A stretch of 38,204 bases of DNA from Burkholderiales bacterium (GTDB lineage Bacteria > Pseudomonadota > Gammaproteobacteria > Burkholderiales > Burkholderiaceae_C): contig JAFLDG010000003.1 in assembly GCA_017302495.1 (NCBI GenBank), forward strand, positions 1 through 38,204, in the 5' to 3' direction. Positions 16,476 to 35,356 of this stretch are shown here, piece after piece. A program made the position numbers and the translations under genes. The notes beneath the pieces are model-generated. The model was not told where the DNA came from. It did not search any database and was given only the letters and a program-made list of their open reading frames with translations. Each line of letters starts with the position of its first letter. Position 1 is the first letter of the stretch.

Positions 16476-18596
16476 TCAGGCCTCGACCAGCGCCGACGTG
16501 GCCTTGAACAGCGACTCGCGGAAGGCGATCGAGCGCGGGCCGACGTCGTCCATCGCCCACAGCGCCAGCGCCTTGGCCGACATCGGCTTGGCGAACAGGT
16601 AGCCCTGCAGCTGGTCGCAGCCGAACTCGCGCAGGATGCGGTACTGCTCGTCGTTCTCGACGCCTTCGGCGACGATCTTCAGGTTCAGCGACAGCGCGAG
16701 CTGGACCACCGCCCCGGCGATCTTGCGCGCCTCGGCGCTGCACTCCAGGTCGAGCACGAAGCCGCGGTCGATCTTCAGCTCGTGCGCCGGCAGCTTGCGC
16801 AGGTAGGCCAGGCTCGAGTAGCCGGTGCCGAAGTCGTCGATCGAGATGTGCACCCCGACCGCGGCCAGGTCGGCGAGGGCCTTTTCGGTCGCGGCGGTGT
16901 CTTCCATCGCGACCGACTCGGTGATCTCGCAGGTCAGCAGGTCGGGGTTGATCTGGTGCCGCCGCAGGGCGGCCGCCACCCGCTCCGGCAGCTCGCGGTG
17001 GCGCAACTGGTGCGCCGACAGGTTGATCGCGACGCGCATCCGCAGCCCGCCGTCGCGCCATACGCGGACCTGCCGGCAGGCCTCGTCGATCACCCAGTCG
17101 CCGAGCGCCTGGATCAGCCCGCAGCGCTCGGCCAGCGGGATGAAGACGCCGGGGCTGATCATGCCGCGCTTCGGGTGGTTCCAGCGCAGCAGCGCCTCGG
17201 CGCCGGTGATCTGGCCGCTCGGGGCATGCACCTTCGGCTGGTAGTACAGCTCGAGCTGGCGCTGGGTCACCGCCAGCCGCAGGTCGCGCAGCAGTTCGGC
17301 CTGCTCGCGCGAGTCGGCGACCATCCGCGGGTCGAACAGCGAGTAGGTGGCGCCGCCCGCGGCCTTCGCCGCGCGAACGGCGACACCGGCGTGGGTGATC
17401 AGCGCCGGCGCCGCACCATGCTGCGGATAGACGGCCAGCCCGACCGACGCGGTGACCGAGATCTCGCGGTGGTCGATGTGGCAGGGCCGGGCGATCGCGT
17501 CCAGCACTCGCGACGCGAGGGTGCGCGCCTGCTCGAGCGCCGCCGCGCCGTCGATCAGCACCAGGAACTCGTCGCTGCCGAGGCGGGCGACGCGGTGCGG
17601 CGGGGCGAGTTCGCGGACGCGCCGGGCGACCTGCTCGAGCACCGCGTCGCCGGCGGCGTGGCCGAAGGCGTCGTTGACATGCTTGAAGCTGTCCAGCCCG
17701 ACCAGCAGCAGCACGGCCGGCGTGCCGGCGGTCTCGGCCTGCTTCAGCACCTGCGCCATCGTGCCCTCGAAGGGACCGCGCGTGAGCAGGCCGGTGACCG
17801 GGTCGCGGAAGCTCGCCGGCGCCGGGGCCGTCCGCTGCTCGAGGGCCCGATGCATCCGGCGCTCCAGTGCGCTGCCGAGCAGCATCAGCAGCAGCAGTTC
17901 GAGCCCGCCGGCGGCCACGGCCGCCGCCATCGATGTCGCCGGCACGAGCGCGTCGCCGCCGGCCACACCCAGCAGCGGCAGCCGCGCGGCGGCGGTCGAG
18001 AGCGTCTGCGCGACCAGAACCACGGCCGCCGCGGCCGCCGCGGCACGCGCCAGTTGCCATGGCGCGGCAAAACGGCCGCGGCCGGCAGGCGCAAGGAGCA
18101 GGCTGGCGGTGACGACGAAGCCGGCCAGCGCCACGACCCAGGCCAGGCCGAGCCAGCCGGGGTGCCACCGGATCCGCGGCGCCAGCCCCAGCGATGCGAG
18201 CAGGGTCGCCTGCATCGCGACCACGCCGGTTGCCAGGAGCGCGGCGCCGGTGACCACACCCGGCCAGGTCGGTTCGGCGACGAGCCAGCTGCGCATCGCG
18301 CCGGCCGCGAGCGCGAGACCGACGAGCGCGGCGACGATCGCCAGGCCGGGGTCGAAGCCGGCATCGAAGGGCGCCAGCATCGCGCTCAGGGCCAGCACCT
18401 GCGCCGACCAGACGCCGGTGCCGAGCGCCAGTGCGGCGGCCATCAGCCAGGGGTTGCGCGCATGGCCGTCCCGGGTGCGCGCGCGCCGGCCGAGATCGAA
18501 CGCGACGAAGGCACCGAGGGGAGCGACGGCCAGCGCCAGCAGCGGCGGCAGCAGCGGCGGACTCAACGCGGACAGTGCGACCGTCATCGACGGCAT
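16476..18596 (-). CDS. Membrane-bound GGDEF-EAL protein (cyclic-di-GMP turnover)
   Basis: 706 residues from ATG 18594-18596 (a second ATG three codons later is possible; neither has a clear Shine-Dalgarno). Residues 1 to about 265 hold seven or so hydrophobic segments, an integral-membrane sensor of the MHYT-like type, though I do not see the canonical MHYT motif. A GGDEF domain follows, with active-site loop G340-S-D-E-F344 in place of GGDEF and no clear RxxD inhibitory site. The EAL domain begins with E467 in EALLRWNHP and has intact metal and catalytic blocks (ITESVAMED, DDFGTGYSS, ELKIDRGFV, KIVAEGVE). It should hydrolyse c-di-GMP; cyclase activity is uncertain. Confidence 0.93.
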   Translation of the reverse strand: MPSMTVALSALSPPLLPPLLALAVAPLGAFVAFDLGRRARTRDGHARNPWLMAAALALGTGVWSAQVLALSAMLAPFDAGFDPGLAIVAALVGLALAAGAMRSWLVAEPTWPGVVTGAALLATGVVAMQATLLASLGLAPRIRWHPGWLGLAWVVALAGFVVTASLLLAPAGRGRFAAPWQLARAAAAAAAVVLVAQTLSTAAARLPLLGVAGGDALVPATSMAAAVAAGGLELLLLMLLGSALERRMHRALEQRTAPAPASFRDPVTGLLTRGPFEGTMAQVLKQAETAGTPAVLLLVGLDSFKHVNDAFGHAAGDAVLEQVARRVRELAPPHRVARLGSDEFLVLIDGAAALEQARTLASRVLDAIARPCHIDHREISVTASVGLAVYPQHGAAPALITHAGVAVRAAKAAGGATYSLFDPRMVADSREQAELLRDLRLAVTQRQLELYYQPKVHAPSGQITGAEALLRWNHPKRGMISPGVFIPLAERCGLIQALGDWVIDEACRQVRVWRDGGLRMRVAINLSAHQLRHRELPERVAAALRRHQINPDLLTCEITESVAMEDTAATEKALADLAAVGVHISIDDFGTGYSSLAYLRKLPAHELKIDRGFVLDLECSAEARKIAGAVVQLALSLNLKIVAEGVENDEQYRILREFGCDQLQGYLFAKPMSAKALALWAMDDVGPRSIAFRESLFKATSALVEA

Positions 18597-18781
18597 TTCG
18601 GCGCAGAGGCCGGGCACTTGAGCGTCGGGGCCGGGCCGCAACGGCGGTCGGCGCGCCGAATCCGTGGCGCTTTGCGCGGGCCGGCCCGGTCTGCGCCCGA
18701 ACCAGCGTCGCAAGCGGGATCGGGCCTGGGCGATGCGTGCCGGCACGGCGCGCGGCGGGTGGCGCGGCTACAGTGCCGCCG

Positions 18782-19873
18782 ATGCAGGCCTTGCAGATCC
18801 ATGCCGGAGCCCGTGCGCGGGAAGTGCTGCGCGAGCGCGGGCTGCGCGCGCTCGACGTGCGCGTCGTGCCCGGTGCCGCCGGCGGGCCGAAGGGGCTGGT
18901 GCTCGGTCCCCTCGACCGTTTCCTGTTCGGCCGTTGGCTGGCCGGCGTGCCGCAGACCGTGCACCTGCCCGGCGCGTCGATCGGTGCCTGGCGCCTGGCC
19001 ACCGCCTGCCTGGCCGACCCGGCGGCCGAGCTGGCGCGTATGGCCGACGACTACATCGGCCAGACCTACGAGCACGGGCCGGGCCGGCCGCCGAAGCCGG
19101 CGCACGTGAGCGCGGTCTTCGGCGCGAAGCTCGACGCGCGTTTCGCCGGGCGCGAGGCCGAGGTGCTCGGCCATCCGCGCTTCCGGCTGCACGTGTTCAC
19201 GAGCCGCGGCCGGCACCGGCTGCTGCGCCGCCAGGGACGCTGGCGCACGCCGCTCGGCTACCTGGGCGCCTTCGTCGCGAACGGCGCGAGCCGGCGCGCG
19301 CTCGGCAACTGGCTGGAACGCGTGGTCTTCTCCGATCCGCGCGAGCCGCTGCCGCTGCCGCTGCACGACGTCCGGACCCAGCAGGTGGCGCTGCGGCCGG
19401 ACAACCTGCGGCTCAGCATCCTCGCCAGCTGCTCGATCCCGTTCTGGCTGGACGCGGTGCACGACATCCCGGGCGCGCCGCCGGGGGCGTACTGGGACGG
19501 CGGCATCACCGACTACCACCTGCACCTGGACTACGGCGCCTTGCCCGCCGACGACGGCTGCGCGAACCTCGTGCTCTACCCGCACTTCCAGAAGACCGTG
19601 ATCCCGGGCTGGCTGGACAAGGCGCTGAAGCACCGCCACCGCGCGAGCGCACACCTGGACAACGTCGTGCTGCTGTCGCCGGCGCCGGCGTGGATCGCGA
19701 CCCTGCCCGGAGCCAAGCTGCCCGACCGCAGCGACTTCAAGGCCTTCGGCGACGATCTGGCCGGCCGCATGGCCGCGTGGCGCCGCGCGGTGCAAGAGAG
19801 CGAGCGGCTGGCCGACGAGTTCGCGCGCCTGGTGGACCGCGGCGACCCGGTGGCGGCGCAGCCGCTGGCTTAG
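18782..19873 (+). CDS. Patatin-like phospholipase
   Basis: 363 residues. The anion-hole glycine segment [12 protein letters not shown] (31-42) comes first, then the nucleophile elbow G-A-S66-I-G in LPGASIGAW, then the dyad Asp D239 in YWDGGITDY. This Ser-Asp dyad layout is that of bacterial patatins, lipid acyl hydrolases. No signal peptide is seen, so it is probably cytoplasmic or membrane-associated. ATG 18782 is chosen because the conserved domain begins there. It is divergent from the GGDEF-EAL gene. Its stop codon TAG lies inside a -10-like TAGAAT that may start the thrS leader transcript. Confidence 0.9.
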
Positions 19874-19876
19874 AAT
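19871..19876 (+). promoter_or_regulatory. Possible -10 element for the thrS leader transcript
   Basis: TAGAAT overlaps the patatin stop codon, 40 bases before the leader ORF. No convincing -35 box is visible 16-18 bases upstream, so this is a weak prediction. A start near 19883 would give a leader RNA of about 245 nt before thrS. Confidence 0.35.
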
Positions 19877-19915
19877 CGGGTCCGTCGCCAACCAGGAAGG
19901 ACCGGGAAAGGCAGC

Positions 19916-19960
19916 ATGGTTATGACACCGCGAACTCCGGGCTTCGTCACCGAAACCTGA
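19916..19960 (+). CDS. Threonine-rich leader peptide (14 residues) upstream of thrS
   Basis: The open frame reads [14 protein letters not shown] and stop, with Thr at codons 4 (ACA), 7 (ACT), 12 (ACC) and 14 (ACC): four of 14 residues. A purine-rich ribosome site (GGGAAAGG) ends a few bases upstream of the ATG. A strong terminator hairpin lies 38 bases after the stop and thrS follows. A Thr-loaded leader in front of the threonyl-tRNA synthetase gene is what a ribosome-mediated attenuator would need. The frame is too short to score by codon statistics, so it rests on position, ribosome site and Thr content. Confidence 0.7.
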
Positions 19961-20030
19961 TCGGCCGCGCGGTCACGCCTGAACCTGGTTCTGTCTCCGA
20001 AGCGCGGTCCGACGACCGCGCTTCTGTTTT
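19925..20030 (+). promoter_or_regulatory. Predicted transcription attenuator of thrS (segments 1-4)
   Basis: Segment 1 ACCGCG (19927-19932, inside the leader ORF) can pair with CGCGGT (19968-19973). Segment 2 GGCCGCGC (19963-19970) can pair with segment 3 GCGCGGTC (20002-20009) over eight positions with one G-U; this is the antiterminator. Segment 3 with segment 4 GACCGCGC (20014-20021) forms the core of the terminator. A ribosome stalled at the early Thr codons would cover segment 1 and leave 2 free to pair with 3, allowing read-through. A ribosome reaching the stop (19958-19960) would cover segment 2 and let the terminator form. Pairings were done by eye. Confidence 0.65.
19999..20030 (+). 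terminator. Intrinsic terminator in the thrS leader
   Basis: A perfect 11-bp stem, GAAGCGCGGTC (19999-20009) with GACCGCGCTTC (20014-20024), closes a four-base loop and is followed by TGTTTT. This is the best rho-independent terminator in the window and it lies about 98 bases before thrS, so it must be read through for synthetase expression unless another promoter lies downstream. Confidence 0.88.
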
Positions 20031-20127
20031 GGTTCCGGCTCGGCCCTTCGGGCCTTCACGTCGCTGCGCGATACGAGCCTTCACCGCAACGGCTTCGCCG
20101 TTGTGCCCCCGCGAGGAAACACGTCCG

Positions 20128-22047
20128 ATGATCACGATCACGCTGCCCGACGGTTCGCGCCGCGAGTTTCCCGGGCCGGTCACGGTGGGTGAGGTCGCCG
20201 CGGCTGTCGGCCCGGGGCTGGCCAAGGCGGCGCTCGCCGGCAAGGTCGGCCGCGGCGGCGATGCGCGCGTGGTGGATCTGAGCCACCGCCTGGAGGCCGA
20301 TGCCGCTCTGGCCATCGTCACCGACAAGAGTGCCGAGGGGCTCGAGCTGATCCGGCACTCGACCGCGCACCTGCTGGCCTACGCGGTCAAGGAGCTGTTC
20401 CCCGACGCGCAGGTGACGATCGGCCCGGTGATCGAGAACGGCTTCTACTACGACTTCGCGTACAAGCGGCCGTTCACGCCCGAGGACCTGGCGGCGATCG
20501 AGAAGCGCATGGCCGAACTCGCCGCGAAGGACGAGCCGGTCGTGCGCCGCGTGCTGCCGCGCGACCAGGCCGTGGCCTACTTCAAAGGCATCGGCGAACA
20601 CTACAAGGCCGAGATCATCTCCGCGATCCCGCCGGGCGAGGACGTGAGCCTGTACCGCGAGGGCGGCTTCGAGGACCTGTGCCGCGGCCCACACGTGCCG
20701 AGCACGGGCAAGCTCAAGCACTTCAAGCTGATGAAGGTGGCCGGCGCGTACTGGCGCGGCGACCACCACAACGAGATGCTGCAGCGCATCTACGGCACGG
20801 CCTGGGCGACGAAGGAGGAACTGCAGGCCTACCTGCGCATGCTCGAGGAAGCAGAGAAGCGCGACCATCGCCGCCTGGGCCGCGAGCTCGACTTGTTCCA
20901 CCTGGACGAGCATTCGCCGGGCACGGTGTTCTGGCACCCGAAGGGCTGGACGGTGTGGCAGCAGGTCGAGCAGTACATGCGCGCGGTCTACCGCGACAAC
21001 GGCTACCTCGAGGTCAAGGGCCCGCAGATCCTCGACCAGCACCTGTGGGAGAAGACGGGGCATTGGGGCAAGTACCGCGAGAACATGTTCACGACCGAGT
21101 CGGAGAAGCGCGAGTACGCGCTGAAGCCGATGAACTGCCCCGGCCACCTGCTGATCTTCAAGCAGGGCCTGCGCAGCTACCGCGAGCTGCCGCTGCGCTA
21201 CGGCGAGTTCGGCCAGTGCCACCGCAACGAGCCGACGGGCGGCCTGCACGGCATCATGCGCGTGCGCGCCTTCACGCAGGACGACGGCCACGTCTTCTGC
21301 ACCGAAGAGCAGGTGCTGGCGGAATGCGCGGCCTTCACGACGCTGCTGCAGAAGGTGTACCGCGACTTCGGCTTCACCGACATCATCTACAAGGTGGCGA
21401 CGCGGCCCGAGGCGCGCATCGGCAGCGACGAGGCCTGGGACCGGGCCGAGCAGGCGCTGATGGAGGGCCTGCGCCGCTCCGGCGTCGAGTTCGAGATCGC
21501 CGCCGGCGAGGGCGCGTTCTACGGGCCGAAGATCGAGTACACGCTGAAAGACGCGATCGGCCGCCAGTGGCAGTGCGGCACGATGCAGATCGACCCGAAC
21601 ATGCCCGAGCGGCTCGACGCCGAGTACGTGGCCGAGGACGGCAGCCGGCAGCGGCCGCTGATGCTGCACCGCGCGATCGTCGGCAGCCTCGAACGTTTCA
21701 TCGGCATCCTGATCGAGCAGCACGCCGGCGCGCTGCCGGCCTGGCTGGCGCCGGTGCAGGCGGTGGTGGCCTCGATCACCGACGCCCAGGCGGCCTACGC
21801 GGAAGAGGTGGTGAAAGCGCTGCAAAAACAAGGAGTTAGAGCGCAGGCCGATTTGCGCAACGAGAAAATCACCTATAAAATCCGCGAGCATTCGATGCAG
21901 AAGGTTCCGTACATCCTGGTCGTCGGTGACAAGGAGAAGGCAAACGGGGCCGTTTCGGTGCGCGCCCGGGGCAATCAGGATCTCGGGGTCATGGCGCTCG
22001 GCGACTTCGCGCAGAAGCTCGTCGACGACATCGCCCGCAAGGTCTGA
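20128..22047 (+). CDS. thrS: Threonyl-tRNA synthetase
   Basis: 639 residues (E. coli ThrS has 642). Domain order: N-terminal TGS domain (1-60), editing domain with [16 protein letters not shown], class II catalytic core and C-terminal anticodon-binding domain ending [11 protein letters not shown]. The active-site zinc ligands are C337 (MNCPGH), H388 (DDGHVF) and H514 (MLHRAIVGS), each three positions after the E. coli numbering. Motif 2 is [12 protein letters not shown]. It charges tRNA-Thr and clears Ser-tRNA-Thr. The ATG at 20128 has GAGGAA nine bases upstream. Two further hairpins (GGCCC-TTC-GGGCC near 20042-20054 and CAACGGC-TTC-GCCGTTG at 20087-20103) lie in its 5' leader, after the attenuator. 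Confidence 0.98.
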
Positions 22048-22117
22048 GGCGCCCGGCGCGCTTTTGTCGTTCTATGCGGCCCCGTTGCCTGGGGCCTGCG
22101 CGAAAGGGGTTGACACC

Positions 22118-22669
22118 ATCGCTACTTCCTTCATGGACCGCCGCATCCCGAATGCGGAGCGCAAGCACCGGCTGAACCGCGAGATCATGGTGCCGCAGGT
22201 GCGGCTGAACGGCGTGAACAACGAGCCGCTCGGCATCGTCGCCACGCACGAGGCACTGCGCATGGCCGGGGAACTGGATGTCGATCTGGTCGAGATCGCC
22301 GCCACCGCCGATCCGCCGGTCTGCCGCCTGATGGACTACGGCAAGTTCAAGTATCTCGAGCAGAAGAAGGCGGCCGAGGCCAAGTCGAAGCAGAAGGTCA
22401 TCGAGATCAAGGAAGTGAAGTTCCGGCCGGGCACCGACGATGCCGACTACGCGGTGAAGATGCGCAACCTGCGCCGTTTCATCGCCGAGGACGGCGACAA
22501 GGGCAAGGTCACGTTGCGCTACCGCGGCCGCGAGATCACGCACCAGGAGATCGGCATGCGGCTGCTGGAGAAGATCCGCGACGAACTGGCCGACGTGGCG
22601 GTGGTCGAGCACATGCCCAAGCTCGAAGGGCGGCAGATGATCATGGTGCTGGCGCCGAAGAGGAAGTAG
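22118..22669 (+). CDS. infC: Translation initiation factor IF-3, with rare ATC start
   Basis: 183 residues, ending [12 protein letters not shown]. The N-terminal IF3 domain [25 protein letters not shown] and the linker-Lys-rich region [22 protein letters not shown] are typical. The start is set at ATC 22118, giving (M)[15 protein letters not shown], because a strong Shine-Dalgarno AAAGGGG (22103-22109) sits eight bases before it, whereas the in-frame ATG at 22133 has none. A non-canonical start is the basis of IF3 autoregulation in E. coli (AUU). The gene begins 70 bases after thrS. If ATG 22133 were used the protein would lose five residues. Confidence 0.95.
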
Positions 22670-22796
22670 GTCACCGCAGGACTTCGCGGCACGCGCTCTC
22701 GCAGCGCGGGCCGCGGGTGCAGAAGCCGCCCACAGGCTCGACAAGCGCCGTGCGCCGCACGGCCGCCTGCCGCGGCAATCAAGAGCAGGAGCAGCA

Positions 22797-23000
22797 ATGC
22801 CCAAGATGAAGACGAAGAAGAGCGCGGCCAAACGGTTCCGCGTCCGCCCGGGGGGCACCGTGAAGCGCGGTGGCGCCTACAAGCGCCACATCCTCACGAA
22901 GAAGTCCACCACCCGCAAGCGCCACCTGCGCGGCGCGAAGCAGGTGCACGAGTCCAACCTCGGCCACGTGGCGGCGATGATGCCGTTCGCGGGCCTGTGA
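22797..23000 (+). CDS. rpmI: 50S ribosomal protein L35
   Basis: 67 residues, [16 protein letters not shown] start, very basic, with [23 protein letters not shown] at the end as in L35 of Betaproteobacteria. AGGAG precedes the ATG. The 127 bases between infC and rpmI contain no gene; no clear L20-binding leader was recognised there. Confidence 0.97.
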
Positions 23001-23016
23001 GCAGGAGGGTCTCGGG

Positions 23017-23373
23017 ATGCCTCGCGTCAAACGTGGTGTGACGGCGCACGCGCGCCACAAGAAGATCCTGGCCCTGGCCAAGGGCTACCGCGGCCGCCGC
23101 GGCAACGTCTTCCGCATCGCCAAGCAGGCGGTGATGAAGGCGGGCCAGTACGCGTACCGCGACCGGCGCACGCGCAAGCGCGTGTTCCGCCAGCTGTGGA
23201 TCGCCCGCATCAACGCGGCGTCGCGCGAACTCGGCGTGACCTACAGCAAGTTCATGGCGGGCCTGAAGAAGGCGCAGATCGGCATCGACCGCAAGGTGCT
23301 GGCCGATCTGGCGGTCAACGACCCGGCGGCCTTCGGCGCGATTGTCGACAAGGTCAAGGCCCAGCTCGCCTGA
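23017..23373 (+). CDS. rplT: 50S ribosomal protein L20
   Basis: 118 residues starting [35 protein letters not shown], diagnostic for L20, with the C-terminal [24 protein letters not shown] block. It starts 16 bases after rpmI, as is usual, and is needed for early 50S assembly; L20 often represses its own operon. Confidence 0.98.
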
Positions 23374-23383
23374 GCCCCGGCCC

Positions 23384-23407
23384 GGCCGCCGCCGCCCGGC
23401 GGCGGCC
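23384..23407 (+). other. Perfect GC hairpin between rplT and pheS
   Basis: GGCCGCCGCC (23384-23393) and GGCGGCGGCC (23398-23407) form a 10-bp perfect stem with a four-base loop ten bases after the rplT stop. There is no U-run, so it may stabilise the ribosomal-protein mRNA or mark a processing or pause site rather than terminate. No Phe-rich leader ORF, as in the E. coli pheST attenuator, is visible before pheS. Confidence 0.6.
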
Positions 23408-23474
23408 GTGACCATGACCGATCCGGCCGCCGCGCCGCGGCGGCCGCCCACGCCTTCGACTCAGCTTCGGCCGC

Positions 23475-24524
23475 ATGGTTATCAACGATCTGGATGCGCT
23501 GGTCGCTTCGGCCGAAGGCGCCTTTGCCGCAGCCGCGACGCCGGCAGAGCTGGAGAACGCGAAGGCGCGTTTCCTCGGCAAGGCCGGCGCCGTGACCGAG
23601 GCGATGAAGGGCCTGGCCGCGCTGCCGGTCGAGCAGAAGAAGAGCCGGGGCGCGGCCATCAACCAAGCCAAGCAGCGCATCGAGGCGGCGCTGCAGGCGC
23701 GCCGCGACGCGCTGGCCCGGGCCGAGCTGCAGGCGCAGTTGCGCGCCGAGGCGCTCGACGTCACGCTGCCGGGCCGTAAGCGCGGCAGCGGCGGGCTGCA
23801 CCCGGTGTCGCGCACGATGATGCGCATCGAGGCGATCTTCCGCTCGATGGGCTTCGACGTCGCCGACGGCCCCGAGATCGAGACCGACTGGTACAGCTTC
23901 ACCGCGTTGAACAACCCGGAGAACCACCCGGCGCGGTCGATGCAGGACACCTTCTACGTCGACCTGAAGGACGCCGAAGGCCGCTGGCTGAACCTGCGCC
24001 CGCACACGAGTCCGATGCAGGTGCGCTACGCGCAAGCCCACGCGTCGCGCCACGGCACGGGCGCCGAGATGCCCGAGATCCGCGTGATCGCGCCGGGCCG
24101 GACCTACCGCGTCGACAGCGACGCCACGCACTCGCCGATGTTCCACCAGTGCGAAGGCCTGTGGATCGGCGAGAACGTCAGCTTCAAGGACCTGAAGTTC
24201 GTCTTCAGCGACTTCCTGCGCCGGTTCTTCGAGACCGACGACCTCGAAGTGCGCTTCCGGCCGAGCTACTTCCCGTTCACCGAGCCGTCGGCCGAGATCG
24301 ACATCGCCTTCGGCCACGGCCCGCTGCAGGGCCGCTGGCTCGAGGTCGCCGGCTCGGGGCAGGTGCACCCGAACGTGGTGCGCAACTACGGCCTCGACCC
24401 GCAGACGCACATCGGCTTCGCCTTCGGCATGGGCCCGGACCGGCTGACGATGCTGCGCTACGGTGTCGGCGACCTGCGCCAGTTCTTCGACGGCGACCTG
24501 CGTTTCCTGTCCCAGTTCCGCTGA
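23475..24524 (+). CDS. pheS: Phenylalanyl-tRNA synthetase alpha subunit
   Basis: 349 residues. The N-terminal coiled-coil arm is followed by the class II core with motif 2 ([26 protein letters not shown]), [35 protein letters not shown] and motif 3 [17 protein letters not shown]. It forms the catalytic part of the alpha2-beta2 enzyme with PheT. The ATG at 23475 is the first in frame; it lacks a clear Shine-Dalgarno, which is unusual for this operon. Confidence 0.98.
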
Positions 24525-24537
24525 CGCATCCGCGACC

Positions 24538-26964
24538 ATGCAGTTTCCCGAATCCTGGTTGCGCGAGTTCTGCAACCCGCCGCTGTCGACCCAGGCGCTG
24601 GCCGAGGCGCTGACGATGGCCGGGCTCGAGGTCGAGGATCTGCGGCCGGCCGCGCCGCCGTGCCGCCGCGTCGTCGTCGGCGAGATCGTCGACGCGTTGC
24701 CGCACCCGAACGCCGACAAGCTGCGCGTCTGCCGCGTGAACGCCGGCGCGCACACGCCGGACGGGCCGGTGCAGGTGGTCTGCGGCGCGCCGAACGCGCG
24801 CGCCGGGCTGCGCGCGCCGTTCGCGCTGGTCGGGGCCGAGCTGCCGCCGGCCGAGGCCGGCGGTGCGCCGCTCGTGATCAAGGCCAGCCCGCTGCGCGGC
24901 GTGGAAAGCTTCGGCATGCTGTGCTCGGCGCGTGAGCTGAAGCTGTCCGACGACCACGGCGGCCTGCTCGAGCTGCCGGCCGATGCGGCGCCGGGCGCCG
25001 ACATCCGCGACGTGCTGCGGCTCGACGACACTATCTTCACGCTCAAGCTCACGCCGAACCTCGCGCACGCGCTCAGCGTCTACGGCGTCGCGCGCGAGGT
25101 GGCCGCGCTGACCGGCGCGCCGCTGCTCGAGCCGCTGATCGAGCCGGTGGTGCCGCTGCACGACGCGCGGCTGCCGGTGCAGGTCGACGCGCCCGACCTG
25201 TGCGGCCGCTTCTCCGGCCGCGTGATCCGCAACGTGGACACGCAGGCGCGCACGCCGGCGTGGATGGTCGAGCGCCTCGCGCGCTGCGGCCAGCGCCCGG
25301 TGAGCGCGCTGGTCGACATCTCGAACTACGTGATGTTCGAGTTCGGCCGGCCGTCGCACATCTTCGATCTCGACAAGATCCACGAGCGGCTGGTCGTGCG
25401 CTGGGGCCGCGCCGGCGAGACGCTGAAGCTGCTGAACGGCAACACGATCGAGGTCGACGGCGCGGTCGGCGTGATCGCCGATGCGCAAGCCGTCGAGTCG
25501 CTGGCCGGCATCATGGGCGGCGACGCGACCGCGGTGTCGGACGCGACCCGCCACGTCTACGTCGAGGCCGCGTTCTGGTGGCCGGATGCGGTTGCCGGCC
25601 GCTCGCGCCGCTACAACTTCGCCACCGACGCCGGGCATCGCTTCGAACGCGGCGTCGACCCGGCGCTGACGGTGGAGCACATCGAGCGCATCACGCGGCT
25701 GATCGTCGAGATCTGCGGCGGCGAGCCCGGGCCGATGGACGACCAGGTGCTCGCGCTGCCCGAGGCACAGCCGGTGACGCTGCGGGTCGAGCGCGCGGCC
25801 AAGGTCATCGGCATGCCGCTGGCGCAGGCGCAGTGCGCCGATGTCTTCCGCCGCCTCGGCCTGCAGTTCCGCGAAGAGCCGGGCCTGATCCACGTCGTGC
25901 CGCCGAGCTGGCGCTTCGACCTGAAGATCGAGGAAGACCTGATCGAGGAGGTCGTGCGCATCGTCGGCTACGGCCGCCTGCCCGACCTGCCGCCGCTGGC
26001 CCCGATCCGCGCCCAGCCGCAGCCGGAAAGCGAGCGCAGCGCGCACGCGGTGCGGCTGGCGGTGGCCGCGCTCGGCTACCAGGAGACGATCAACTACAGC
26101 TTCGTCGAGGAGCGCTGGGAACGCGAACTGGCCGGCAACGCCGACCCGATCCGCGTGCTGAACCCGATCGCGGCGCCGCTGGCGGTGATGCGCTCGAGCC
26201 TGGTCGGCAGCCTGGTGCAGGTGCTGCGCCACAACCTCGACCGGCATGCGGCGCGGGTGCGGGTGTTCGAGGTCGGCCGTGTGTTCCGCCGCGACCCGAT
26301 GGCGCCCGACACCGCATCCAGCGTTGCGGGCCTGGTGCAGCCGACGAGGATCGCCGCGCTCGCCTACGGCCCGGCCGACGAGCCGCAGTGGGGCCAGCGC
26401 GAACGCGCGGTCGACTTCTTCGACGCCAAGGGCGACGTCGAGGCGCTGCTCGCGCCGCGCCGGCCGCGCTTCGTCGCCGCCGAGCACCCGGCGCTGCACC
26501 CGGGGCGCTGCGCGCGCATCGAACTCGACGGCCGCCCGATCGGCCATGTCGGCGAGCTGCACCCGCAGTGGCGCCAGGCCTACGAGCTGCCGCACGCGCC
26601 GGTGCTGTTCGAGCTCGACCTCGACGCCGTGCTCGGGCGCGACCTGCCGCTGGCTGCGCCGGTGCCGCGGCACCAGGCGTCGCGGCGCGACATCGCGCTC
26701 GTCGTGCGCGACGGCATCGGCCACGATGCGCTGGCCGAGGTGCTCGGCCGGGATCCGTCGGGTCTGGTGCGCTCGGTGCTGCTGTTCGACGTCTACCGCC
26801 CGCCGCAGCCGACCGCCGACATCGGCGCCGGCGAGCGCAGCCTCGCGCTGCGGCTGGAGCTGCTCGACGACGCCGCGAACCTGACCGACGCGCGCATCGA
26901 CGCTGCCGTCGCTGCCGCGGTGCAGCGCGCGCAGGCGACTTTCGGCGCGCGGCTGCGCGGCTGA
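24538..26964 (+). CDS. pheT: Phenylalanyl-tRNA synthetase beta subunit
   Basis: 808 residues from ATG 24538, 13 bases after pheS. Domains in order: the N-terminal MQFPESWLREFCNPPLS, a tRNA-binding EMAP-like domain (about 40-150, HPNADKLRVCRVNAG), B3/4 editing domain (EFGRPSHIFDLDKI), B5 domain, the catalytic-like core and a C-terminal ferredoxin-fold anticodon-binding domain (RDIALVVRDGIGHDALAEVL). It recognises tRNA-Phe and edits mischarged Tyr. The overlapping upstream extension of the frame is inside pheS and is not used. Confidence 0.98.
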   Translation: MQFPESWLREFCNPPLSTQALAEALTMAGLEVEDLRPAAPPCRRVVVGEIVDALPHPNADKLRVCRVNAGAHTPDGPVQVVCGAPNARAGLRAPFALVGAELPPAEAGGAPLVIKASPLRGVESFGMLCSARELKLSDDHGGLLELPADAAPGADIRDVLRLDDTIFTLKLTPNLAHALSVYGVAREVAALTGAPLLEPLIEPVVPLHDARLPVQVDAPDLCGRFSGRVIRNVDTQARTPAWMVERLARCGQRPVSALVDISNYVMFEFGRPSHIFDLDKIHERLVVRWGRAGETLKLLNGNTIEVDGAVGVIADAQAVESLAGIMGGDATAVSDATRHVYVEAAFWWPDAVAGRSRRYNFATDAGHRFERGVDPALTVEHIERITRLIVEICGGEPGPMDDQVLALPEAQPVTLRVERAAKVIGMPLAQAQCADVFRRLGLQFREEPGLIHVVPPSWRFDLKIEEDLIEEVVRIVGYGRLPDLPPLAPIRAQPQPESERSAHAVRLAVAALGYQETINYSFVEERWERELAGNADPIRVLNPIAAPLAVMRSSLVGSLVQVLRHNLDRHAARVRVFEVGRVFRRDPMAPDTASSVAGLVQPTRIAALAYGPADEPQWGQRERAVDFFDAKGDVEALLAPRRPRFVAAEHPALHPGRCARIELDGRPIGHVGELHPQWRQAYELPHAPVLFELDLDAVLGRDLPLAAPVPRHQASRRDIALVVRDGIGHDALAEVLGRDPSGLVRSVLLFDVYRPPQPTADIGAGERSLALRLELLDDAANLTDARIDAAVAAAVQRAQATFGARLRG

Positions 26965-26991
26965 CCCTTCAACCCGCCCGAGGCGCCCGCC

Positions 26992-27333
26992 ATGGACCCC
27001 GTCATCCTGCCGAGCATCGAGACGCCGACACTGACCAAGGCCGAACTGGCCGAACTGCTGTTCGACAAGCTCGGGCTGAACAAGCGTGAGTCGAAGGACA
27101 TGGTCGAGGCCTTCTTCGACATCCTGCACGCGACGCTGGTCGGCGGCGGCGACGTCAAGCTCTCCGGCTTCGGCAACTTCCAGATCCGGCGCAAGGCGCC
27201 GCGCCCCGGTCGCAACCCGCGCACCGGCGAGTTGATCCCGATCCAGGCGCGGCACGTGGTCACATTTCACGCCAGCCACAAACTCAAGGCGCTCGTCCAG
27301 GGTGACACCCCGCTGCCGGAAGAGTTCGAGTAA
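26992..27333 (+). CDS. ihfA: Integration host factor alpha subunit
   Basis: 113 residues. The core [31 protein letters not shown] and the DNA-intercalating arm [29 protein letters not shown] identify the IhfA type of HU/IHF proteins. The N-terminal extension [12 protein letters not shown] and C-terminal DTPLPEEFE are typical of Betaproteobacteria. IHF bends DNA and is often needed for site-specific recombination, so its closeness to the tRNA-Pro island is of interest, though the order pheT-ihfA is ancestral. Confidence 0.97.
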
Positions 27334-27368
27334 AGTCTGAGCTTTGATCGTGGATCCCATTGATTTCA

Positions 27369-27806
27369 ATGGAGAAAGCTCTCCCGCCGATACCCGCGAA
27401 GCGGTACTTCACGATCGGTGAGGTCAGCGAGCTGTGCGGCGTCAAGCCGTACGTGCTGCGCTACTGGGAGAGCGAGTTCGCGCAGCTGAAGCCGATGAAG
27501 CGCCGCGGCAACCGGCGCTACTACCAGCACCACGAGGTGCTGCTGATCCGCCGGATCCGCGAGCTGCTGTACGACCAGGGCTTCACGATCAGCGGTGCGC
27601 GCAACCGGCTGGCCGACCTGGCCCCCGGCGCGCGCGTTGCCAAGGCCGGCAATGGGCGGGATATCGAGTCGCCGGCGCCCGAAGCGGCGGAAACCGACGT
27701 GGCCGAGCCCGCGGCCGAAGCGGCGCCGCTGCCGGAGGTGCGCGAGTTCACGATGGCGCAGTTGCGGCACGAACTGCAGTCGATCCGCGACCTGCTCGCG
27801 GGTTGA
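27369..27806 (+). CDS. MerR family transcriptional regulator
   Basis: 145 residues from ATG 27369; an in-frame TTG at 27360 is an alternative. The winged helix-turn-helix reads YFTIGEVSELCGVKPYVLRYWESEFAQLKPMKRRGNRRYYQHHEVLLIRRIRELLYDQGFTI, the MerR DNA-binding domain. The effector-binding Cys residues of metal-sensing MerRs are absent; the C-terminal half is Ala/Glu-rich with a last helix FTMAQLRHELQSIRDLLAG. A MerR-like gene directly after ihfA is a conserved feature of proteobacteria. Target genes are unknown. Confidence 0.95.
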   Translation: MEKALPPIPAKRYFTIGEVSELCGVKPYVLRYWESEFAQLKPMKRRGNRRYYQHHEVLLIRRIRELLYDQGFTISGARNRLADLAPGARVAKAGNGRDIESPAPEAAETDVAEPAAEAAPLPEVREFTMAQLRHELQSIRDLLAG

Positions 27807-27855
27807 GCCGGCGGCCGCGACCTGCATCCGCTCAGGGCGCGGCAGGGGCGGCGCC

Positions 27856-27861
27856 TATAAT
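27856..27861 (+). promoter_or_regulatory. -10 element of the tRNA-Pro promoter
   Basis: A consensus TATAAT lies 13 bases before the mature tRNA start. No good -35 hexamer is visible at the expected distance, but GC-rich stable-RNA promoters can be weak there. Confidence 0.6.
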
Positions 27862-27871
27862 CCGCGCTCAC

Positions 27872-27950
<79 letters not shown>

Positions 27951-27956
27951 ATCGAA

Positions 27957-27993
27957 ACAACGGGTTGGCTCTCACGAGGAGCCAGCCCGTTGT
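27957..27993 (+). terminator. Terminator just inside the island, after tRNA-Pro
   Basis: ACAACGGGTTGGCTC (27957-27971) pairs with GAGCCAGCCCGTTGT (27979-27993) over 15 positions with one G-U, followed by CCTTCTT. It lies inside the element, seven bases after the tRNA, so the element seems to bring its own terminator for the host tRNA. Confidence 0.8.
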
Positions 27994-28016
27994 CCTTCTT
28001 GCATCCAACTCGCTCG

Positions 28017-35249: not shown

Positions 35250-35356
35250 GCATCCCCCGATGCACCCCCGGCAAGAAGGTGCCGCGCCAGCCCGCCGGGG
35301 GACGGTTGTTCGGGGATCAGCCTAGGCGCGGCGAAACCGAAGTATCGGCAAGCGCT

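Follow-up and report, generated by a model that had tools for sequence, protein, structure and literature searches.

How is thrS, the gene for threonyl-tRNA synthetase, controlled in this Burkholderiales bacterium? The window, i.e. the whole stretch of 38,204 nt that was analysed, carries thrS (639 aa) on the forward strand at 20128..22047. In textbooks, thrS stands for translational self-repression in E. coli and for T-box control in Firmicutes, and a leader-peptide attenuator would be another solution. Control of thrS by charged tRNA-Thr through ribosome stalling was the interpretation of a preliminary description of this region, and the comparison of sequences from related bacteria supports it. 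With a probability of about 0.87, the leader and the terminator/antiterminator upstream of thrS constitute a classical ribosome-mediated transcription attenuator sensing charged tRNA-Thr. Every sequence feature tested fits such attenuators, with mixed results that are given below where they arose.

The comparison comprised 196 thrS upstream regions, namely the window, 79 of 80 listed loci and 116 regions from relatives found with thrS. Locus L038 came without upstream sequence and was left out of all counts, and the regions upstream of second, divergent thrS copies (L203, L204) were included. The same-genus set consisted of 67 regions, i.e. the window and 66 of 71 genomes; for the other five, no listed match reached the thrS start. 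A strict leader motif followed by an in-frame stop was present in 109 of the 196 regions overall. Among same-genus regions, it was detected in 65 of 67. Missing conservation of the leader ORF or of its Thr codons had been named beforehand as grounds for abandoning the idea; within the genus, both proved to be conserved.

The leader ORF had originally been described as 14 codons long, starting with the ATG at 19916..19918 (+ strand) and containing four Thr codons. Direct reading and translation confirmed the open frame 19916-19960 and its four Thr codons, but not the position of the start. Because the ATG at 19916 is kept in few relatives (17/65 genus leaders and 6/44 other leaders), we place the conserved start of the predicted leader at the second ATG, 19922. 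The ORF (19922..19960, + strand) accordingly comprises 12 codons and a TGA stop (19958-19960), with Thr at codons 2, 5, 10 and 12. A ribosome-binding site ahead of the leader had been proposed too, and AAAGG at 19907..19911 (+ strand) answers to it; the motifs AAGG, GAGG or AGGG were present at most 18 nt upstream of the leader ATG in all 65 genus leaders and in 41 of 44 others. A short ORF with a ribosome site before the terminator, as is expected of a leader-peptide attenuator, was thus found by sequence comparison, its translation being predicted. In one of the genus exceptions (L089), GTG replaces the conserved ATG; translation may begin there at an ATG located two codons further upstream in the same frame.

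Downstream of the stop codon, direct reading, folding and a terminator scan all identified a putative intrinsic terminator at 19999..20030 (+ strand). As previously noted, its stem of 11 bp is perfect and is followed by TGTTTT; the stem-loop (19999-20024) encloses a 4-nt loop, CGAC. In the scan, this hairpin was the sole + strand terminator-like site within 19700-28000. By itself it is weak proof, since shuffled sequences give as many terminator-like sites (mean of 3.8, versus 3 sites found in the scan of both strands). A hairpin GCGCGG..CCGCG was present downstream of the stop in 65/65 genus leaders. When a strict finder was applied, a hairpin with a T-run was detected in the window and in 98 of 109 leaders, in line with the intrinsic terminator that precedes the structural gene in leader-peptide attenuators. 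Ten of the 11 leaders without a terminator by this finder belong to the genus and have kept the hairpin, followed by a weak T-run. In L014, the hairpin was not recognisable.

The preliminary description also contained an alternative pairing over eight positions, and this pairing held up in the window. Segment 2 (GGCCGCGC, 19963..19970, + strand) would represent the 5' strand of the antiterminator, and segment 3 (GCGCGGTC, 20002..20009, + strand), located within the 5' arm of the terminator, its 3' strand. The two form eight consecutive pairs, one of them G-U, with a duplex energy of -20.8 kcal/mol; relative to shuffled spacers, z was -2.8 and p 0.015. All comparisons of antiterminators in relatives exclude the 11 leaders in which no terminator was detected, and both the tally of pair types and the re-dealing test were restricted to those 82 of 98 loci that possess the GCGCGG terminator arm. 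In the re-dealing test, spacers were shuffled among loci and the best site was chosen anew each time, relatedness being ignored. For the 82 loci, 597 of 656 cells paired as compared to 580.4 (sd 3.3) after re-dealing, and none of 2000 shuffles was as high; for the 27 loci outside the genus, the corresponding values were 192 of 216 and 182.1, with two of 2000 shuffles reaching the former. The covariation of terminator and antiterminator that had been anticipated among relatives was thus recovered, and the predicted antiterminator covaries with the terminator arm. At position 7, for example, C-G, T-G, A-T and T-A pairs were all present, and the helices found include GCCGCGC:GCGCGGC and GTTCGCGC:GCGCGGAC.

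Other groups contained antiterminator helices of unlike sequence which still pair, represented by GCTAGTCG:CGGCTAGT in loci that we take to be Oxalobacteraceae-like (e.g. Massilia) and by TCGAGG:CCTCGA in presumably Burkholderia-like loci. The idea of one consensus antiterminator shared by all loci was rejected, as some groups have other sequences. The remaining comparisons gave less uniform results. At the level of single loci, antiterminator energy was better than in shuffles (p<=0.05) in 31/55 genus loci and in only 7/43 other loci. In an energy matrix with arms swapped among families (at most 12 loci per class), the own arm came first or shared first place in only three of six classes. Finally, the best-scoring ungapped helix between segments 2 and 3 consisted of just four pairs in 2/55 genus loci.

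These results also bear on whether the leader might act on thrS translation, or via Rho, instead of via the intrinsic terminator. Leader peptides that control translation are known in general, and the weak T-run behind the hairpin in 10/65 genus leaders would agree with it. However, a hairpin with a T-run accompanies the leader in the window and in most relatives (see above), the antiterminator is directed at the 5' arm of the terminator, and the hairpin ends 16-95 nt before thrS in genus loci with a terminator and 103 nt before it in the window, all of which makes this explanation improbable.

The codon content of the leaders depends on the reading frame. After codon 5, Thr accounts for 159 of 576 codons in frame in the genus, versus 9 and 6 of 576 in the two shifted frames, and for 62 of 975 just downstream of the leaders. 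In the 44 leaders outside the genus, 84 of 362 codons specify Thr in frame, versus 5 and 19 in the shifted frames. The leaders are therefore rich in codons for threonine, the amino acid that the product of the controlled gene handles, as is another property of leader-peptide attenuators. Genus leaders end with TGA, TAG or TAA (40, 21 and 4 cases, respectively) and range from 12 to 22 codons in length, with the frame retained. Particular codons are nearly fixed as well: codon 2 is ACA in 65/65 and codon 5 is ACT in 63/65 genus leaders, with 41/44 and 33/44, respectively, outside the genus. Codon 4 is CGA in 43/44 leaders outside the genus; within it, CGG was found in 56 of 65 leaders and CGA in nine, including the window. 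In five genes of the window (thrS, rpmI, rplT, pheS and pheT, the start of pheT being assumed at 24616), ACA was used for none and ACT for two of 70 Thr codons, and CGA for none of 179 CGN codons.

Could the hairpin then simply terminate the upstream gene, and the ORF be a chance reading frame? It is true that an ORF ends upstream at 19873, that the scan often finds terminator-like sites by chance, and that in some relatives the hairpin occurs without a leader. An ORF that arose by chance, however, would not be expected to reach 27.6% Thr in a single frame, to have rare codons that are nearly fixed and a conserved ribosome site, or to be accompanied by a covarying antiterminator. A chance origin is made very unlikely by the conservation, the dependence on the reading frame and the covariation, and we give this explanation very little credit. 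The pattern is that of a selected, Thr-counting ORF, the translation of which is predicted.

Segment 1 (UGAC and CGCG, 19923..19932, + strand) stretches from the start codon to codon 4 and, in the minimum free energy fold, pairs with 19966-19975 when no ribosome is present. That a segment within the leader could pair with segment 2 had been suggested earlier, and such pairing was better than in shuffles in the window (z -2.3, p 0.04). The partner of UGAC, GTCA, was found no more than 26 nt from the stop in 36/65 genus leaders, as against 9.7 expected from shuffles, and outside the genus in only 3/44. The pairing of segments 1 and 2 reached p<=0.05 in 23/65 genus loci and in 5/44 others, i.e. 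it is weak outside the genus. A functional microprotein, the Thr content of which would serve the peptide itself, is hardly credible in spite of the conserved N-terminus M-T-P-R-T, given that Thr is retained while the C-terminus differs among leaders in both length and sequence, and that codons 2-4 are nearly invariant at the nucleotide level, where segment 1 is formed.

As for the attenuator itself, its alternative states were examined by folding free RNA. When a ribosome was placed at codon 5, 6 or 10 and segment 4 was not yet made, the antiterminator was obtained (-21.8, -21.8 and -20.7 kcal/mol, respectively), and with a ribosome at the stop codon the terminator (-23.9 kcal/mol). The whole leader without a ribosome also folded into the terminator (-62.6 kcal/mol). 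When the full RNA was folded in the presence of a stalled ribosome, the equilibrium structure was still the terminator, from which we infer that the switch needs kinetics or timing. A ribosome-placed antiterminator that excludes the terminator, as leader-peptide attenuators have, is thus predicted from covariation and from folding states, the results of both being mixed.

The following sequence of events would be consistent with these states. When Thr-tRNA is scarce, the ribosome would stall at a Thr codon, for example codon 5, and cover segment 1. Segment 2 would then be free to pair with segment 3, no terminator would form, and thrS would be transcribed. With Thr-tRNA in ample supply, the ribosome would proceed to the stop codon at 19958-19960. 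The 3' edge of the usual ribosome footprint lies at +16, which would place it at about 19971; segment 2 would be covered, and the terminator would form. If the leader is not translated at all, segments 1 and 2 would pair, and the terminator would form as well.

In the preliminary description, a main thrS promoter downstream of 20030 would have spoken against the attenuator; support for a promoter ahead of the leader is indirect. The predicted -10 box, TAGAAT (19871..19876, + strand), shares nucleotides with the stop codon of the ORF upstream (19871-19873). In 61 of 65 genus regions, a hexamer of this kind, defined by a loose pattern, starts 47-66 nt 5' of the leader ATG, but a sigma-70 scan yielded no promoter anywhere in the scanned sequence, the predicted -10 site included. 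The scan is therefore uninformative about internal promoters. The upstream ORF (18431-19873 of the window, + strand) contains a patatin-like stretch below the Pfam cut-off (24.5 vs 27.7 bits).

To follow the leader across a wider range of genomes, its exact 18-nt start motif, GGTTATGACACCGCGRAC, was used. It was present in 216 of 299 genomes of the window's family, representing 112 of 141 genera. Across the order, 32 of 399 genomes contained it, including 11 of 12 from the window's family and 21 from four other families, while in a sample of the class (n=274) there were three matches, all in the window's own family. Among these results the motif never occurred more than once per genome, which suggests that one gene is served; reversed-pattern controls gave no match. 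Its position before thrS is a matter of design in the thrS-anchored regions. Among genomes searched by pattern only, it was determined just for G078, where the motif lies about 200 nt upstream of thrS.

In several relatives, no leader was found and the hairpin is located close behind the -10-like box (L116 in the genus; L018, L022, L030 and L033 outside it). A decayed leader, the start of which reads ATA, was found in L019. In leader-less relatives, the hairpin that is left may serve a different purpose. Among the 85 regions that lack the strict motif (L089 and L116 were excluded from this count), 13 contained clusters of Thr, more than of any other residue (Ser with seven and Arg with six came next). 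This is suggestive of other Thr-rich ORFs preceding some thrS genes elsewhere in the order; in at least one of the 13 cases (L022), there seems to be overlap with the gene upstream. Taken together, leaders with or without given Thr codons, several antiterminator sequences and natural losses make up a clean comparative system. A different neighbour, a tRNA gene, was encountered in 61/196 thrS upstream regions, nearly always tRNA-Val(GAC). It was present in many families of the order (L155-L204 and several other loci included) and in none of the regions from the window's genus.

Several known systems resemble the one proposed here. The pheST operon and the trp, his and thr operons of gammaproteobacteria are governed by leader attenuators that likewise combine a short leader containing regulatory codons with segments 1-4 and with a terminator opposed to an antiterminator. 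In pheST, moreover, attenuation acts on an aminoacyl-tRNA synthetase operon, as it would here. These attenuators differ in the amino acid or in the operon concerned; the enteric thr leader, for instance, controls thrABC and is not known to control thrS. In E. coli, threonyl-tRNA synthetase regulates its own translation by binding a tRNA-like operator and blocking the ribosome. The gene is the same and the feedback is similarly tied to threonine charging, whereas the agent is an operator-bound synthetase and no leader peptide is known to be involved. T-box control of thrS in Firmicutes also senses the charging of tRNA-Thr by transcription antitermination, but uncharged tRNA binds the RNA directly and no translated leader is known to take part.

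A further parallel comes from the actinobacterium Streptomyces lividans, for which a Thr leader peptide immediately preceding thrS (thrL-thrS) has been proposed and listed as an attenuator (PMC8079986). There, thrL is described as MKRVRPFLETTPGFVPAR, with two Thr residues, a leaderless start, one hairpin and no U-rich sequence (PMC8079986); our comparison relies on this published description. The thrS leader of the window thus adds to a known kind. No report of a Thr leader before thrS in betaproteobacteria was found among the literature matches listed, the two surveys most likely to contain an earlier prediction (Lopatovskaya 2010, Vitreschak 2004) lying outside their scope. The pheST operon is mentioned in PMC1262725. 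Neither Rfam Thr_leader (RF00506) nor T-box (RF00230) matched at gathering score, nor did they at E values up to 5 on 19850-20140. A minus-strand hit to Rfam P24 (13.8 bits, cut-off 100) was dismissed as weak. As no Rfam family matches the window's copy, such switches have probably escaped annotation in these genomes.

Downstream of thrS lie infC, encoding IF3 (22118..22669, + strand, with a predicted ATC start), and then rpmI, rplT, pheS, pheT and ihfA, all named from Pfam matches. These six genes may share the thrS transcript. No + strand terminator-like site was found by the scan between 20024 and 28000, which makes control of infC-rpmI-rplT-pheST by read-through from the switch possible. 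We can only tentatively extend this to a sensor of Thr charging that would set the expression of thrS together with infC, rpmI, rplT and pheST by read-through in hundreds of betaproteobacteria. In such a sensor, the codons ACA-CCG-CGA/CGG-ACT would serve both as a timed pause and as the segment 1 strand, and several lineages would have lost the mini-gene while keeping a bare hairpin after the promoter.

The distance between the end of the hairpin and thrS is longer in the window (103 nt) than is usual in the genus (median 24, range 16-95). This fits the presence, between the terminator and thrS, of a hairpin-rich dispersed repeat of about 80 nt (20027..20112, + strand, edges approximate), which lies outside the switch. 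In the source genome (G000), 22 matches to this repeat were listed, the window's own included. Several of them form close pairs or triples, and copies are located on contigs C157, C64, C382, C526, C91, C268, C133 and others. In the 3' part of the window, a tRNA-Pro(GGG) gene (27874-27950, + strand) and a match to the Rfam int-alpA RNA (35266-35332, - strand, 40.9 bits) hint at an integrative element.
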